Shown here piece after piece: positions 4,472 to 15,700 of a stretch of DNA of 37,442 nucleotides; position 1 is the stretch's first letter; the number at the start of each line of letters is the position of its first letter. Under the pieces are notes generated by a model, which saw only the letters and a program-made list of their open reading frames with translations, had not been told where the DNA came from and ran no database searches. Origin of the DNA: Bifidobacterium breve. GTDB lineage: Bacteria; Actinomycetota; Acidimicrobiia; Acidimicrobiales; Acidimicrobilacustridaceae. A program made the position numbers and the translations under genes. The DNA lies in NCBI GenBank assembly GCA_945862505.1, contig CAMAYJ010000020.1:1-37442 (forward strand), given 5' to 3'.

Positions 4472-5779
4472 TTAGTTATCTGGCCGCCAGGCCACGACTG
4501 AACCAGCAAGATCGACGAACTCTGCGGCGGCCGAAAGGTCGACAGCAATACCGGTGACGCTCACGCCTGAATCACTCATGGCCGCAACAAGATTTGCTCG
4601 GTGTTGCGAAGGATCGCTGCCGGAGACATCGTCGCCCCATTGCTCAACGACTATGGAGAGATCGAGTGATGCGGCAAGATCGAGCAACTCGTTCTCAAGC
4701 AATCCACCTGGCGTCGTAATTGCCACTGAACGAGTGCCATCAAGCGCGGCAACGATCGCCGAAGCGATCGCGAAACCATCAGCGATCAGAGCGGGCACTA
4801 CAACGCGACCCATCGGAACAGGAACGAGGCCGCGAGCGAACCAAAACCCTGCAGCGCCGCCATCGACGTAGACCTGCACATCAGCATCGATTGCATCGAA
4901 GACATCGAGCACGGCGCGAACGGGATGTAACGGCGAAGTGTTCGCATCTCGGTGATCGCCGAACACCGCCGCGCACGCTTCGACGAGCGACGACCGAGCA
5001 GGTTCCGGTTTGACCGTGGGCCAGTCCGTTGCGAGGAACGGTAGATGCCACGGCTCAACTTCAAGGAGTTGCGCGTTCACCGGCAATGACTCACCGAGTT
5101 CGTCATCGTCAACACCAACCGCTACAACAAGTTCGCATTCATCGAGACCACCCAGCGCAGGATCATCAGACTGAATCCCGACAACACCACACCATGACGG
5201 GTGATCGAACGGAACAACCCCAGTCGCGCCCATCGTGGTCATAACTCCGGCACCAGTGCGCGTAACGAAATCGGCAACATCGGCCCCAACGCCGTCACGG
5301 ATCACACCCGGGCCAATGACGATCATCGTGCGGAAGTCGGCGAGACCAGATGAAAGACGAAGGAGCTGATCACTTCGTTGCAAAATAAGTGGTTGGGCGC
5401 CTTCCGGAGCCTCGGCCAGCAGGTCACCCGGCAGTTCAATCTCGATCGCACTGAACACACGGCCCAGCGACCAGCCCGCAATTGCAGCCGGCAAATCTTC
5501 TATCGCAATTGAAAGTGGGGCCGTCTCCTCGCCTGGTTGCGAAGAAAGACGCAACCGACGACCAGGAAGAAGTGCGACACCTGGCCGAGCATCGGGCGTA
5601 ACAGACAGACGTCCGTCAGCATCGGCCAGTGCAATCGCCGCAGCCTCTGATGCGACAGGAATGAGCGCAATGCCTTCGAGTGCGTCGAGTCCGTGACCTT
5701 GAGCAGCAAATGCTCGAGTCGCTCCGGCTGCGCGCAAACAGCGCGAAACAAGCGAGGCAACTGACTCAGATGTGGTCAC
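4472..5779 (-). CDS. ThDP-enzyme-like (acetolactate-synthase fold) protein, degenerate cofactor site
   Basis: 435 residues using GTG 5779, four bases past the stop of the upstream gene; ATG at 5836 gives 454 residues but overlaps that gene by 53 bp. The layout mimics ThDP-dependent decarboxylases. The N-terminal PYR-like part has ASEAAA (Glu45), in the place of the glutamate that activates ThDP. The middle domain carries IGPGVIRDG. The C-terminal PP-like domain has VDGGAAGFW and then ITTPGGLLEN (about 353-362) where active enzymes carry the Mg/diphosphate motif GDG...N. Loss of GDG and short length (normally about 550) suggest a non-catalytic or strongly diverged protein. It is the last gene of the operon 8-7-6 kb and is likely co-transcribed with two acyl-CoA dehydrogenases. 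It could be a related but uncharacterised lyase subunit. Confidence 0.65.
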   Translation of the reverse strand: MTTSESVASLVSRCLRAAGATRAFAAQGHGLDALEGIALIPVASEAAAIALADADGRLSVTPDARPGVALLPGRRLRLSSQPGEETAPLSIAIEDLPAAIAGWSLGRVFSAIEIELPGDLLAEAPEGAQPLILQRSDQLLRLSSGLADFRTMIVIGPGVIRDGVGADVADFVTRTGAGVMTTMGATGVVPFDHPSWCGVVGIQSDDPALGGLDECELVVAVGVDDDELGESLPVNAQLLEVEPWHLPFLATDWPTVKPEPARSSLVEACAAVFGDHRDANTSPLHPVRAVLDVFDAIDADVQVYVDGGAAGFWFARGLVPVPMGRVVVPALIADGFAIASAIVAALDGTRSVAITTPGGLLENELLDLAASLDLSIVVEQWGDDVSGSDPSQHRANLVAAMSDSGVSVTGIAVDLSAAAEFVDLAGSVVAWRPDN

Positions 5780-5783
5780 GAGA

Positions 5784-6803
5784 TCAGGCGTCGAGCAATA
5801 GGTGAGCCACGCGACGGCGATGCCATGCCGCGTCACCCCAACTTGATGCGAGCGCCCATGAACGCTTCAGCCAGAAGTGCAGATCGTGTTCGGTGGTGTA
5901 GCCGATGGCGCCGTGATTTTGCAGCGCCTTTCGGGCAACGACCTCGGCGGCATCGGATGCGAAACATTTCGCCATCGAGACTTCACGATCGACATCAGCC
6001 GAACCATTGGCAAGGCCATAGGCAGCAGCCCAAACCGCTGGTCGAGCAAATGACACCTTGAGTTCGGCATCGGCCAAGTGATGCTTGACTGCTTGGAAGC
6101 TTCCGATCGGTACACCGAATTGCTTGCGATCAACGACATAGGCGACAGTCATCGCAATCATTTGCTCTGATAAGCCGATGAGTTGTGCGGCTGTCGCGGC
6201 CGCACCGCGGTCAAACGCGCGGTTCGCTGCTTGCAGAGCGGCTTCGCCCGAAACGACGAGTTCGGCATCGGCTTCGTCCCATTCGATACTGAACAAACGA
6301 CGTGCGCCATCGACGGACACCTGCGGAGTCGAGCGAACGTGTTCGGCGGGAATGGCAAAGAGTTGATCACCACGCTGCGCAATCAAAAGGTTGGCGATGT
6401 GCATGTCGTTCACAAACGGCTGATCATCGAGTTGAACGGTTGCGATAACGGAACCGTCGGCGATTCCTGGCAACCACTTTTCGGCAATTGCCGCGGGAGC
6501 CGACTCGGTAAGAAGCGGAGCGACAACGGCAACTGTTTCAACAAGGGGCGCCGGGTAGGCGTAGCGACCGGCTTCGGTCAGGATCGGCAGCAGGTCAATC
6601 TCGTTCATCCCCATGCCACCAAAGGCTTCGGGAACAGTGAGGCCAATCACACCCATTTCAGCGAGTGCCGCCCATGTTGACGCGTCGCGACCGACCGCGT
6701 CGTCCCATGACCAGCGCACCTTTTCGGGCGGGCATTCATTGGCAAAGAATTCAGCGACGGTGTCGCGAAACAGCAGTTGATCTTCGGTGAAAGCGAATTG
6801 CAT
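5784..6803 (-). CDS. Acyl-CoA dehydrogenase, small-type (beta-like) subunit
   Basis: 339 residues starting MQFAFTEDQLLFRDTV, the usual N-terminal helix of the family. GLTVPEAFGGMGM (about 53-65) is the conserved VPE.(Y/F)GG region. The C-terminal part carries KALQNHGAIGYTTEHDLHFWLKR, matching the conserved HG.IG...EHDL..YLKR segment of the C-terminal domain. The protein is shorter than the usual 380-400 residues. Start ATG lies six bases from the stop of the 392-residue acyl-CoA dehydrogenase gene upstream. A long and a short acyl-CoA dehydrogenase side by side is the arrangement of actinobacterial alpha2beta2 FadE heteromers (e.g. the mycobacterial cholesterol side-chain enzymes), so a two-gene complex is likely. 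The acyl-CoA substrate is unknown. Confidence 0.88.
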   Translation of the reverse strand: MQFAFTEDQLLFRDTVAEFFANECPPEKVRWSWDDAVGRDASTWAALAEMGVIGLTVPEAFGGMGMNEIDLLPILTEAGRYAYPAPLVETVAVVAPLLTESAPAAIAEKWLPGIADGSVIATVQLDDQPFVNDMHIANLLIAQRGDQLFAIPAEHVRSTPQVSVDGARRLFSIEWDEADAELVVSGEAALQAANRAFDRGAAATAAQLIGLSEQMIAMTVAYVVDRKQFGVPIGSFQAVKHHLADAELKVSFARPAVWAAAYGLANGSADVDREVSMAKCFASDAAEVVARKALQNHGAIGYTTEHDLHFWLKRSWALASSWGDAAWHRRRVAHLLLDA

Positions 6804-6809
6804 CTCGGC

Positions 6810-7988
6810 CTACTTCCGGGGCAGACCGAGCACGCGCTCGGCGACGACGTTGCGTTGAATTTCATTCGTGCCCGCATAGATCGGGCCACTCAGTGCGAAC
6901 TCGAATCCCTTCATCCACGCTCCCCCATCGACTGCATCGGGTGAGGTTTCAATGAGTTCGGCGGCAGGGCCGAGCAAACGAAGCGCGGTCTCATTGAGTT
7001 TCACATCAAGTTCCGACCAGTAGATCTTTGTGAGACTTGATCGAGCGCCCTGTGAAACACCCTTCACAAGACCAGTGACATCGACAAGTGTGGCCAGTCG
7101 ATACGCCTCGGCTTCCATCCACGACTGCGCTACATCGCTGCGCAGCGAATCGATGCGCTCTGGATATTCGCCGGCAGCAGCCTGACGCTTCCAAAGATCA
7201 ACAAGGCGATCGGCAGCTGCACAAAAACGACCAGGAGAACGCAGGGTGAGGCCACGCTCAGAAGATGCAGTCGCCATGGCGACGCCCCAACCTTCGTTGA
7301 CGCCACCCAATACCAAGTCATCGGAAACGAAGACGTCGTCGAAGAACACTTCAGCGAAACCTTCATCGCCATCAAGACGCTCAACGCCGCGCACAGTCAC
7401 GCCAGGTGCATCGAGCGGAACCAAGAGGTACGTCATGCCGCTGTGGCGCGCCGCTTCTGGGTCGGTGCGGAACAAACCGAATACCCAATTGCAGAACGCA
7501 CCGCGAGTTGTCCAAGTCTTTTGACCATTAATGACCCAGCCGCCGCGCTCATCGTCGCGTGCAGCTCGGCTCTTGATGCCAGCAAGATCGGAACCAGCGT
7601 CGGGTTCCGACCATCCCTGACACCACAGGTCATCGGCCGCTGCCATGCGCGGAAGGAAACGCTCCTTCTGCTCGTCGGTTCCAAACTCAAAGATTGTTGG
7701 TGCGAGAAGGAAGATGCCGTTCTGTGTCACGCGCTGCGGACCACCGACTCGGTAGTACTCCTCTTCAAAAATCAGCCATTCCCACAACGATGCACCGCGC
7801 CCGCCGAATTCCTCGGGCCACGACACCACTGACCAACGAGCTTCGAACAGTTTCTTTTCCCACTCGACGTGAAGGGCAAAGCCCTCGGCGGTATCGCCGG
7901 AAGGAAGGCCGACAGGAACATTGGCTTCGAGCCATTCCCGAGCTTCGGCCCGAAAGGCCTCTTCGGCCGGTGTGAAGGTCAGATCCAT
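6810..7988 (-). CDS. Acyl-CoA dehydrogenase, long-type (alpha-like) subunit
   Basis: 392 residues from ATG 7988 (CGGAG eight to nine bases upstream), beginning MDLTFTPAEEAFRAEAREWL. An in-frame start at 8144 would add 52 residues without family similarity and would read through the palindromic operator, so it is rejected. Visible family features are PEEFGGRGA, the FAD-contacting WSEPDAGSDLAG, and the C-terminal YAGTNEIQRNVVAERVLGLPR. It is FAD-dependent and introduces a 2,3 double bond into an acyl-CoA. It is first in an operon with the short acyl-CoA dehydrogenase and the ThDP-like gene. Transcription is probably controlled from the 27-bp palindrome at 8100-8126, which also faces the amidohydrolase gene, so degradation of a shared compound is plausible. 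Confidence 0.92.
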   Translation of the reverse strand: MDLTFTPAEEAFRAEAREWLEANVPVGLPSGDTAEGFALHVEWEKKLFEARWSVVSWPEEFGGRGASLWEWLIFEEEYYRVGGPQRVTQNGIFLLAPTIFEFGTDEQKERFLPRMAAADDLWCQGWSEPDAGSDLAGIKSRAARDDERGGWVINGQKTWTTRGAFCNWVFGLFRTDPEAARHSGMTYLLVPLDAPGVTVRGVERLDGDEGFAEVFFDDVFVSDDLVLGGVNEGWGVAMATASSERGLTLRSPGRFCAAADRLVDLWKRQAAAGEYPERIDSLRSDVAQSWMEAEAYRLATLVDVTGLVKGVSQGARSSLTKIYWSELDVKLNETALRLLGPAAELIETSPDAVDGGAWMKGFEFALSGPIYAGTNEIQRNVVAERVLGLPRK

Positions 7989-8099
7989 GGGGACTCCGTT
8001 GGGGGAACGTTCGCTCCGGAGGGGCGATCGTAGGCCCTCCATCATTGATCGGTCAGGTTGAGCGGCCTCAGCGACGAACGTCACGCGACTGATTCGTAG

Positions 8100-8126
8100 C
8101 AAAACCTGACGGGTCGTCAGGTTTTG
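8100..8126. promoter_or_regulatory. 27-bp near-perfect palindromic operator between divergent genes
   Basis: Arms CAAAACCTGACG and CGTCAGGTTTTG are exact reverse complements around the three bases GGT. The site lies in the intergenic space between the minus-strand acyl-CoA dehydrogenase start (7988) and the plus-strand amidohydrolase start (8183). Size and symmetry fit a TetR-family dimer (or dimer pair). A lone half-site-like GGTCAGGTTG occurs at 8051-8060. No regulator gene is next to it in the window. Binding by a TetR-type acyl-CoA-responsive repressor is inference. Confidence 0.75.
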
Positions 8127-8135
8127 TCCTAAAGT
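8106..8135 (+). promoter_or_regulatory. Possible promoter for the amidohydrolase gene, overlapping the operator
   Basis: CTGACG at 8106-8111 and TAAAGT at 8130-8135 are 18 bases apart, each 4 of 6 to the consensus. The -35 element falls inside the palindrome; because the palindrome is symmetric a matching CTGACG also faces the minus-strand operon. A bound repressor would block both directions. Weak elements, so only a suggestion. Confidence 0.35.
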
Positions 8136-8182
8136 CCTCTGCACGGGGACTAGCCCCGATGTCAGCGCCCTTGAGGAGAGCC

Positions 8183-9427
8183 ATGACCATCACCGCTCCC
8201 AATCCCGCTTCGCCCGACACGAAGCGCGTCATTCCGAAGATCGTTTCCGTCGATGACCACATCATCGAACCGGCCGATGTTTGGACGAGTCGCCTCCCGA
8301 AGAAGTACCTCGACGTTGGCCCGCGCCTTGAGCGTTTGCGCGTCGACAACCTCAAGTTCGACGGCATGAACTACTCGTTCGACATCGTCGGCGACAACAG
8401 CCCCGGCGGAAAGTTCGCTGACTTCTGGTGCTACGAGGACCTCAAGGTCCCGATGCGTCGCATCATCACTGCCGTTGGCTTCGACGTCGAAGAGCGCACG
8501 ATGCTTCCGGTTACATACGAAGAAATGCGCAAGGGATGTTGGGATCAAACCGCTCGCCTTGCCGACATGGACGCAAACCACACCGAAGCATCTCTTTGCT
8601 TCCCAACCTTCCCTCGTTTCTGCGGACAGACTTTTGCTGAAGCCAAAGACAAGGAACTCGCACTTCTGTGCGTCCAGGCGTACAACGATTTTATGGTCGA
8701 GGAATGGTGCGGCGGCGCCGGCAAGGGCCGACTCATTCCGCTCATCATTGTTCCGATGTGGGATGCCGAACTCGCCGCTGCCGAGATCTACCGCAATGCC
8801 GCACGCGGTGTGCACGCAGTGTGCTTCTCGGAAGTTCCGCACTTCCTTGGCCTCCCCACCATTCACTCGGGCTACTGGGATCCGTTCTTCCAGGCCTGCA
8901 ACGACACCCAAACCGTTATCAACATGCACATCGGTTCGTCCTCACGAATGCCCGCAACGTCACCCGATGCACCGGCTGCCGTGCAGGCCACGCTGAGCTT
9001 CAACCAAGGAATGGCGTCGTTGGCTGACTGGATCTTCTCCGGCATCCTCCCCCGTTTCCCCGACATCAAGCTCGCCTACTCCGAAGCGCAAATGGGATGG
9101 ATCCCGTACTTCCTCGAGCGGGCCCAGAACGTGTGGTCGGAATTCCGCGGTTGGGCATTCGACCCCGAAATCGTCAGCGAACCGCCCGAGTTCTACTTCC
9201 GTCGCCAGGTCTACGCATGCTTCTTCCGCGACAACTTTGGTCTGAAGAATCTTGAAGACATCGGCATCGACAACGTCACGTTTGAAACCGATTATCCGCA
9301 CTCCGATTCAACGTGGCCGCACACTGAACAGTTCATCCGTGACATGGCTGTCGATCTCGACGATGAGTCGCTGTACAAGATCATCCGTGGCAACGCCATC
9401 AAGATGCTGCATCTTGATCTCGACTGA
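8183..9427 (+). CDS. Amidohydrolase-family metal-dependent hydrolase (PF04909 type)
   Basis: 414 residues from ATG 8183, which has TTGAGGAG just upstream; the in-frame ATG at 8159 is rejected for lack of a site. The N-terminus has SVDDHIIEP (about 22-30), the metal-ligand strand of the TIM-barrel amidohydrolases related to ACMS decarboxylase. Later come INMHIGSS, and near the C-terminus FETDYPHSDSTWP, which carries the conserved Asp. Actinobacteria encode many such proteins, often beside acyl-CoA dehydrogenases and other catabolic genes, but few have known substrates; decarboxylase or hydrolase activity is equally possible. It is divergent from the acyl-CoA dehydrogenase operon and shares its palindromic operator. 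Confidence 0.88.
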   Translation: MTITAPNPASPDTKRVIPKIVSVDDHIIEPADVWTSRLPKKYLDVGPRLERLRVDNLKFDGMNYSFDIVGDNSPGGKFADFWCYEDLKVPMRRIITAVGFDVEERTMLPVTYEEMRKGCWDQTARLADMDANHTEASLCFPTFPRFCGQTFAEAKDKELALLCVQAYNDFMVEEWCGGAGKGRLIPLIIVPMWDAELAAAEIYRNAARGVHAVCFSEVPHFLGLPTIHSGYWDPFFQACNDTQTVINMHIGSSSRMPATSPDAPAAVQATLSFNQGMASLADWIFSGILPRFPDIKLAYSEAQMGWIPYFLERAQNVWSEFRGWAFDPEIVSEPPEFYFRRQVYACFFRDNFGLKNLEDIGIDNVTFETDYPHSDSTWPHTEQFIRDMAVDLDDESLYKIIRGNAIKMLHLDLD

Positions 9428-14541: not shown

Positions 14542-15663
14542 GTGATTCCCCGAAATAACGATAACACTTCGCTTCAAGCGAGCGGCCCTGAATTGGCCGA
14601 GTTTCAGTCATTATCGGCCGCGATCGAATGGCACATGGGTCGGCGGCAATGGTCTCAATCTGATCTCGCTCGCGTTCTAGGTTGGTCAACACAGTCGTTG
14701 TCCGATCTCGTGAATAGCCGCTCTCGCCTTCGGGCTAGCGAAGCGTTAGACCTGAGTCATGCTTTCGGCAGGCCAGCTGTCGATTGGCTCAGCGTTCAAG
14801 CACGAGCTGATGTCACCGATGAGCTTCAAGTTGCCGGGGTAATGGAACGACTTAGCGACGTGGCATCTAGGGCGCGCGTAGAAGAGAAGTTACCTACGCG
14901 AGAGTTGATCCGTAGAGGAACGCTTCCAAATGCAAGTCCCAGCGAGATCGAGGATGCTGCTTTACATCTACTTGAGATCTCTTCCATAGACGATGAGATC
15001 CCGTTTGCTGCGTCCGCCCGACGATCCAATCGGGAACTAATCCCGTCGCGGCATCAACTCGCCTGGGTCGCCGAGGCGCGCAGGAAAGTCACATCCGAGT
15101 TCCCGCCCCTAGCACCCAACGCCTCACTAATAGATCTCGGTAAGTCACTGTCGACAACAGTTCGAACTCAAGACGACCTGCGCGAACTCCCGAAACGTTT
15201 TGCGGAACTTGGAGTGGCTCTCATCTACGTGCCAGCGATTTCAGGATCGAAAATTGATGGCGTATGCACCACCGTCAATTCACACCCGCTAATTGCGATA
15301 TCTGGTCGCGGCGGTAGAGCAGACAAAGTGATTTTCACGATCGCTCACGAGCTCGCGCACCTCAGCCTCGGGCATCTTGAGTTGCAGTCGATGTTCGTCA
15401 GCGACGGAGAGCTCACATCCAGTAGTTCAACAGATGTGCGCGAAGACCAAGCAGACCTGCAAGCTGCTAACTGGTTGATCGCCGATTTCGACGAACTTCG
15501 CGGCCGTTCAATCACTTGGGCACGAATCGTTGAATTTGCCGAACAGCGTGGAATCAGCGAATCCCTTGTAATCGGACGTCTTCAAAAAGAGGGCATGATT
15601 CCGTGGAATTCTCAATTCAACAAACGAATTCCGTCCGTGATGGAAACGCTAATGAGTTGGTAA
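14542..15663 (+). CDS. HTH-domain protein fused to ImmA/IrrE-type metallopeptidase
   Basis: 373 residues. Residues about 25-75 form an XRE/HigA-like helix-turn-helix (WSQSDLARVLGWSTQSLSDL). Residues about 200-345 form an ImmA/IrrE-type zinc peptidase: TIAHELAHLSLGH supplies HExxH (His269, Glu270, His273), and Glu301 in REDQADLQAANW is a candidate third ligand. Such fusions act as repressors and/or proteases that control mobile elements, stress responses or toxin-antitoxin pairs. The start GTG sits directly behind a strong promoter. It heads a group of four plus-strand genes of lower GC than the surroundings. Autoregulation is likely from the HTH, but no operator was recognised. A gene for a classical HigB toxin was not found next to it. 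Confidence 0.85.
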   Translation: MIPRNNDNTSLQASGPELAEFQSLSAAIEWHMGRRQWSQSDLARVLGWSTQSLSDLVNSRSRLRASEALDLSHAFGRPAVDWLSVQARADVTDELQVAGVMERLSDVASRARVEEKLPTRELIRRGTLPNASPSEIEDAALHLLEISSIDDEIPFAASARRSNRELIPSRHQLAWVAEARRKVTSEFPPLAPNASLIDLGKSLSTTVRTQDDLRELPKRFAELGVALIYVPAISGSKIDGVCTTVNSHPLIAISGRGGRADKVIFTIAHELAHLSLGHLELQSMFVSDGELTSSSSTDVREDQADLQAANWLIADFDELRGRSITWARIVEFAEQRGISESLVIGRLQKEGMIPWNSQFNKRIPSVMETLMSW

Positions 15664-15668
15664 GCATA

Positions 15669-15700
15669 CGGGCGGGCGGAGTTGCACCTCCGCCCGCCCG
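15669..15700. terminator. Perfect 13-bp GC-rich hairpin downstream of the HTH-ImmA gene
   Basis: CGGGCGGGCGGAG and CTCCGCCCGCCCG are exact complements around a six-base loop (TTGCAC), five bases after the stop. There is no T-run, so it is a factor-assisted terminator, attenuator or mRNA-stability element rather than a classical one. It would uncouple the regulator from the three genes that follow. Confidence 0.55.

Follow-up and report, generated by a model that had tools for sequence, protein, structure and literature searches.

A conserved palindrome upstream of an amidohydrolase gene as the probable operator of a TetR-type catabolic repressor in Acidimicrobiales

The closest described systems are TetR-type repressors of mycobacteria and related bacteria. 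KstR2 is the repressor of steroid C/D-ring catabolism in mycobacteria and Rhodococcus, and its operator is a palindrome of 14 bp, AnCAAGnnCTTGnT, found 22-82 bp from start codons and also between divergent genes (PMC3068626). The KstR2 regulon, as tabulated in the literature (Table 3 of the paper cited), includes fadD3, acyl-CoA dehydrogenases, and further ring-degradation genes, and kstR2 (KR76_25115) is numbered adjacent to fadD3 (KR76_25120) (PMC7807495). BkaR, a mycobacterial TetR protein, is described as a repressor that controls its own gene and has its palindrome at several promoters (PMC3920632).

The window, that is, the whole stretch of 37,442 nucleotides under analysis, is one contig of a genome of 2.3 Mb in 115 contigs. 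It carries a 27-bp palindrome at 8100-8126 between an amidohydrolase gene and a divergent operon. This palindrome is likely to be the operator of a TetR-family repressor (PF00440 at the N-terminus, PF19352 at the C-terminus) acting on the amidohydrolase promoter, the divergent operon having a promoter of its own. The features of the locus are the following:

4472-5836, minus strand: ThDP-enzyme-like protein, PF00205 at residues 169-246; start uncertain, overlaps the previous gene
5784-6803, minus strand: second acyl-CoA dehydrogenase, without a middle-domain match; best NCBIfam model IpdE2, below its cut-off
6810-7988, minus strand: acyl-CoA dehydrogenase, first gene of the divergent operon; PF02771, PF02770, PF00441
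8027-8032, minus strand: predicted -10 of the acyl-CoA dehydrogenase promoter, TACGAT, 18 nt from CTGACC
8051-8056, minus strand: -35 of the acyl-CoA dehydrogenase promoter, CTGACC (the "half-site" of the preliminary description); CTGAC[CG] in 19 of 19 loci
8100-8126, no strand: putative palindromic operator with exact 12-base arms; core 8106-8120, CTGACGGGTCGTCAG
8106-8111, plus strand: predicted -35 of the amidohydrolase promoter, CTGACG, which is the left operator arm; 18-nt spacer to TAAAGT
8130-8135, plus strand: predicted -10 of the amidohydrolase promoter, TAAAGT; TAAAGT or TAGAGT in 13 of 13 aligned rows
8183-9427, plus strand: amidohydrolase, PF04909; closest solved relatives DitZ (8uyr) and PtmU3 (6omp)

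The amidohydrolase matches DitZ with an E value of 1e-63 and PtmU3 with 1e-29 in the PDB, and its named nearest relatives come mostly from Acidimicrobiales or Microthrix-type MAGs. DitZ belongs to diterpenoid degradation and PtmU3 to the synthesis of a diterpenoid antibiotic. The nearest PDB entry of the second acyl-CoA dehydrogenase is 6wy8 (Tcur3481), and 4x28 is also matched; both are presumably parts of heteromeric steroid acyl-CoA dehydrogenases. Against IpdE2 the acyl-CoA dehydrogenase of the window scores 155.6, the cut-off being 450. In the ThDP-like protein only the central domain is recognised by Pfam, and the protein is perhaps a degenerate or non-catalytic member. The preliminary description had grouped it with the two acyl-CoA dehydrogenases and the amidohydrolase in one catabolic regulon; the sole basis for its place in the operon is the overlap with the preceding gene.

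The palindrome reads CAAAACCTGACG GGT CGTCAGGTTTTG, its 12-base arms being exact complements around GGT, as had been stated before. With arms of at least 12 bases and a loop of at most 10, the window has a single other perfect inverted repeat, the GC-rich hairpin at 15669-15700, while 40 simulated windows (first-order Markov) contain 0.1 such repeats on average and any at all in four. That hairpin (GGGCGGGCGGAG...CTCCGCCCGCCC) lies directly past a reading frame ending at 15663 and is probably a terminator. The core pattern CTGACGNNNCGTCAG occurs in the window's genome in three exact copies versus one for the reversed pattern, which taken alone is weak evidence beyond chance. Patterns with two to three mismatches barely exceed the control in this genome (134 versus 151 and 89 versus 67), so that only exact and one-mismatch sites were used. 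The 181 unique sites show a preference for A at -9 and for T or C at -8 in the flanks, and for purine-N-pyrimidine in the centre.

All 37 genomes of the family contain the core in 1-18 copies each, versus 0-1 for the reversed control (252 versus 5 in total), and it is present in 126 of 298 genomes of the order and in 91 of 396 in a sample of the phylum. Among 78 relatives of the amidohydrolase, a set that omits L243 (no upstream sequence) and includes a few windows shortened by contig ends, 46 have a site with at most one mismatch upstream, as against none of the 78 in-gene windows. The Streptomyces loci all have it (12/12); the 32 relatives without a site include several other Acidimicrobiia as well as the loci of Pseudofrankia, Blastococcus, and Sphaerimonospora. 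Orthologous loci were taken from 19 of the 21 genomes of the genus, chosen for a visible GGGTC/GACCC-type palindrome (G008 and G012 were left out), and in the 13 of these intergenic regions that were aligned the longest invariant block is AACCTGACGGGTCGTCAGGTT. The palindrome is found before orthologous gene pairs, and two further exact cores exist in the genome; the preliminary proposal, which absence from both would have contradicted, is therefore not contradicted on this point. Judged by these comparisons, the palindrome is a functional and widely conserved DNA switch.

The regulator of this operator is probably a TetR subfamily combining PF00440 and PF19352. A first look for TetR genes beside sites gave only one, about 1 kb off, in another genus of the family (L053), and it was in larger stretches of site-rich genomes that the candidate came to light, one subfamily being found near sites in G166, G240, G296, and G022. 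None of the other TetR genes near sites (L249, L253, L262, L276, and L286) recurred, so they were discarded. The window's genome (G000) has two copies, G000:C30:22014-22643 and G000:C86:1251-1874. The C30 copy follows an isochorismatase-fold gene and lies opposite a thiolase gene (L338:927-3653), and the 450 bp upstream of it contain no site with up to three mismatches. PF00440, the TetR_N helix-turn-helix, scores 28.8-35.7 bits in these two and in the proteins of G166 and G296 and 26.8 bits in the g207 copy of L361 (cut-off 24); PF19352 (TetR_C_38), a TetR-type C-terminal ligand domain, reaches 67-243 bits in all five, its cut-off being 23.9. Two proteins of the subfamily reached no NCBIfam model at its cut-off. 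In 69 distinct orthologues each position of the helix-turn-helix segment SPATFYQYF is 97-100% conserved.

Orthologues, defined by a best match with E < 1e-30 (all of at least 146 bits, the next genomes reaching at most 64), occur in 85 of the 298 genomes of the order. Of the 66 genomes with at least three sites, 64, belonging to 19 families, have one, versus 21 of the 232 with fewer (odds ratio 321). One control TetR from the same genome is distributed as 44/66 versus 51/232 (odds ratio 7), and this association indicates that shared ancestry explains part of the signal. Contrasts within families argue against shared ancestry alone: in f54 five TetR-bearing genomes have 5-9 sites and five without it have none, and in f14 G315 has the TetR and six sites, the nine others having neither. 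Outside the order, at least three sites are found in 14 of 18 TetR-bearing genomes (11 of the 18 being of genus g207) versus 9 of 348 lacking it, one of the nine (G393, 62% complete) having a weak TetR match.

It is conceivable, if improbable, that the operator and its regulon are genuine and that the regulator is another protein co-occurring with this TetR. Such a reading would accommodate the 12 of 85 TetR-bearing genomes of the order with zero or one exact site and the two site-rich genomes in which the TetR was not detected, G112 (six sites) and G260 (four sites, 86% complete). It would also fit the fact that the majority of the TetR genes are not themselves preceded by a site: 40 of 50 TetR loci have none (at most one mismatch) just upstream, and in genus g207 none of 11 has one within the 3.6 kb examined. 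Against this reading, the association is far tighter than that of the control TetR, also outside the order, and among the TetR-type genes in the scanned loci no other recurs beside sites. Moreover, in two genomes the candidate TetR is the last gene of an operon with a site at its head, exact in G020 and with one mismatch in G000, and a site with at most one mismatch lies within 140 bp upstream in 10 of 50 TetR loci, versus 50 of 1000 random windows from the same loci. In G000 this site, C86:6016, heads four genes, namely, a FadD3-family ligase, a second ligase, an SDR, and the TetR. The FadD3-family ligase passes its NCBIfam cut-off (757 and 758 versus 657). The PF00440/PF19352 subfamily remains the probable regulator.

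The CTGACG elements in the arms had been placed as -35 boxes in both directions. The plus strand fits this placement, with TAAAGT after 18 nt; in L068, which is outside the alignment, TACACT stands at the same -10 position. The minus-strand arm has no TANNNT at spacers of 16-19 nt. Of the 307 site orientations that open onto an ORF of 150 aa or longer, 35 have TANNNT at a distance of exactly 18 nt from the arm, compared with some 0.8 per offset, most of these rows being from the window's genus and many being mutual orthologues. Seven of the 35 are from loci that were not drawn from this genus (L058, L180, L250, L265, L267, L275, and L285), of which L180 was not placed in a genus and L285 has a doubtful reading frame. 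In a second peak of 17 rows TANNNT begins one base past the palindrome, and this class is predicted to be a second promoter type whose spacer is filled by the operator. A start codon is predicted 13-17 bp past the palindrome in 10 of these 17 rows, which suggests leaderless mRNAs.

On the divergent side a separate promoter is apparent. CTGAC[CG], 18 nt, and TAC[GC]AT are found in this order in all 19 loci of the genus and precede the acyl-CoA dehydrogenase frame in each (in L063 the contig end cuts the frame). The half-site-like copy reported at 8051-8060 does exist, as the 8 bases GTCAGGTT at 8052-8059, and its role appears to be that of the -35 of this promoter. At its position a full second palindrome is present in six of the 19 loci (L066, L067, L068, L075, L076, and L078) and one with two mismatches in L069; L067 and L075 have two palindromes about 560 bp apart, each before one of the two genes. 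The element at 8051-8056 would be the remnant or the precursor of a second operator.

These findings bear on the original proposal that one palindrome is the common -35 and the switch of both divergent promoters, which now seems very unlikely. In its favour are the symmetry of the palindrome and its position between the two genes, and such a design is predicted elsewhere: at L346:7657 and L090:2638 both arms of one palindrome serve as -35, each with TANNNT after 18 nt, and this palindrome, separating a FadD3-type ligase from a divergent enoyl-CoA-hydratase-like gene, is the predicted shared switch of the pair. In the window, however, the minus side offers no TANNNT at 16-19 nt, and the divergent promoter with its own half-site -35 is present in all 19 loci of the genus, in six of them with a palindrome of its own. 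That the inverted repeat arose by chance, or works at the RNA level as a hairpin for termination or attenuation, can be set aside as hardly credible. The repeat is indeed perfect, but different families, and genomes outside the order as well, keep it in front of genes that are not related to one another. Transcripts from the amidohydrolase promoter would not contain it, since the predicted -10 comes after it, and no terminator-like site was found in 7900-8300, where a promoter and terminator scan, with a total-match rule stricter than the pattern used here, returned nothing.

The preferred explanation remains a TetR operator on the amidohydrolase promoter. While the site, its conservation, the neighbouring genes, the TetR co-occurrence, and the promoter spacing come from comparison, binding, repression, and ligand are inferred. 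Bound to the palindrome, a TetR dimer would mask the -35 of the amidohydrolase promoter together with its spacer and keep RNA polymerase off, and an acyl-CoA-type intermediate would release it. The acyl-CoA dehydrogenase operon, with its own promoter whose -35 is a half-site form of the same sequence, may be a weaker or former member of the regulon.

The other sites give an indication of what is regulated. Of the exact cores in the window's genome, C1:48809 is upstream of a paralogous amidohydrolase (PF04909, 51% identical to that of the window), and C1:79522 has an Amidohydro_3 gene on one side and an aldehyde dehydrogenase on the other. Five of the seven one-mismatch sites (C12, C34, C58, C74, and C80) were set aside because they are located within listed reading frames; besides C86:6016, there is C57:2348, upstream of an FTR1 iron permease (L022). 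An FTR1 permease also has an exact operator upstream at L093:2570 and L119:2523 (G007 and G017). A second palindrome, TTAGGTTGCCCTAA, stands beside the C57:2348 site and presumably resembles an IdeR/DtxR box. Iron uptake may be part of the regulon.

A Pfam survey covered 107 site-adjacent ORFs outside the genus, drawn from 76 sites after 16 of 123 flanking ORFs had been left out (6 duplicates, 10 others). The most frequent families were SDR (9), AMP-binding ligase (7), Amidohydro_2 (7), and luciferase-like (6), followed by acyl-CoA dehydrogenase (5), ChsH2-type OB fold (5), CoA-transferase III (3), and enoyl-CoA hydratase (3); the counts are from the best 25 of 49 families, the remaining ORFs having rarer families or no match and some surely being spurious. 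A catabolic regulon, as first suggested, is supported by these acyl-CoA dehydrogenase, ligase, hydratase, and amidohydrolase genes. On the basis of the neighbour families and of the DitZ/PtmU3 and steroid-type acyl-CoA dehydrogenase matches in the PDB, the degradation of polycyclic carboxylic acids is the best guess for its function.

Most likely, then, a TetR-type repressor controls the breakdown of ring-shaped, lipid-like acids in many uncultured actinobacteria. A bolder version, offered tentatively and with somewhat less than even confidence, is that the PF19352 TetR subfamily is a previously undescribed master repressor of the degradation of polycyclic, steroid- or terpenoid-like acids in Acidimicrobiia and beyond (including Streptomyces), that its ligand is a CoA thioester which its own FadD3-type ligase produces, and that it corresponds to KstR2 but acts through an unrelated operator whose arm doubles as a -35. 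Owing to this double use, operators could decay to half-sites with the promoter surviving, and one of two divergent promoters could lose or gain the shared repressor and still be a promoter. For the widespread uncultured Acidimicrobiia the analysis provides a candidate regulator together with its operator, and a list of genes across whole genomes (as many as 38 sites in one genome). A large number of uncharacterised enzymes, namely, amidohydrolases, acyl-CoA dehydrogenases, and luciferase-like proteins, would thereby be tied to one control circuit.

A string search of the open literature for core sites and the Pfam accession, with most subscription journals outside its coverage, gave no relevant paper, and one 13-mer site string was matched solely in papers unrelated by their titles and the beginnings of their abstracts. 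The best PDB match of the TetR profile is EthR, another TetR-family protein, with an E value of 3e-8 across roughly 150 residues; by this profile match it is a distant relation. None of the best 60 of 112 PDB matches of the C86 TetR is named KstR or KstR2. The KstR operator is also unlike the palindrome described here.

With KstR2 this system shares the TetR-type candidate, the palindromic form of the putative operator, and the sites between divergent genes, and its gene set, with a FadD3-family ligase, may be similar. It differs in the operator, which is CTGACGNNNCGTCAG here (CTGACGGGTCGTCAG in the window) and AnCAAGnnCTTGnT for KstR2 in its published description (PMC3068626), and the earlier opinion that the motif is not of the KstR type agrees with this difference. 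Unlike those of KstR2, the sites in the present case are spread around the genome, and their neighbours include amidohydrolases, luciferase-like oxidoreductases, and CoA-transferases. BkaR is similar in being of the TetR type with a palindrome recurring at several promoters, but its operator, GTTA(N)T(N4)A(N)TAAC, and its branched-chain keto-acid genes are different (PMC3920632). By its sequence relations, the palindrome behaves like the operator of a TetR catabolic repressor and is not a KstR2 site.
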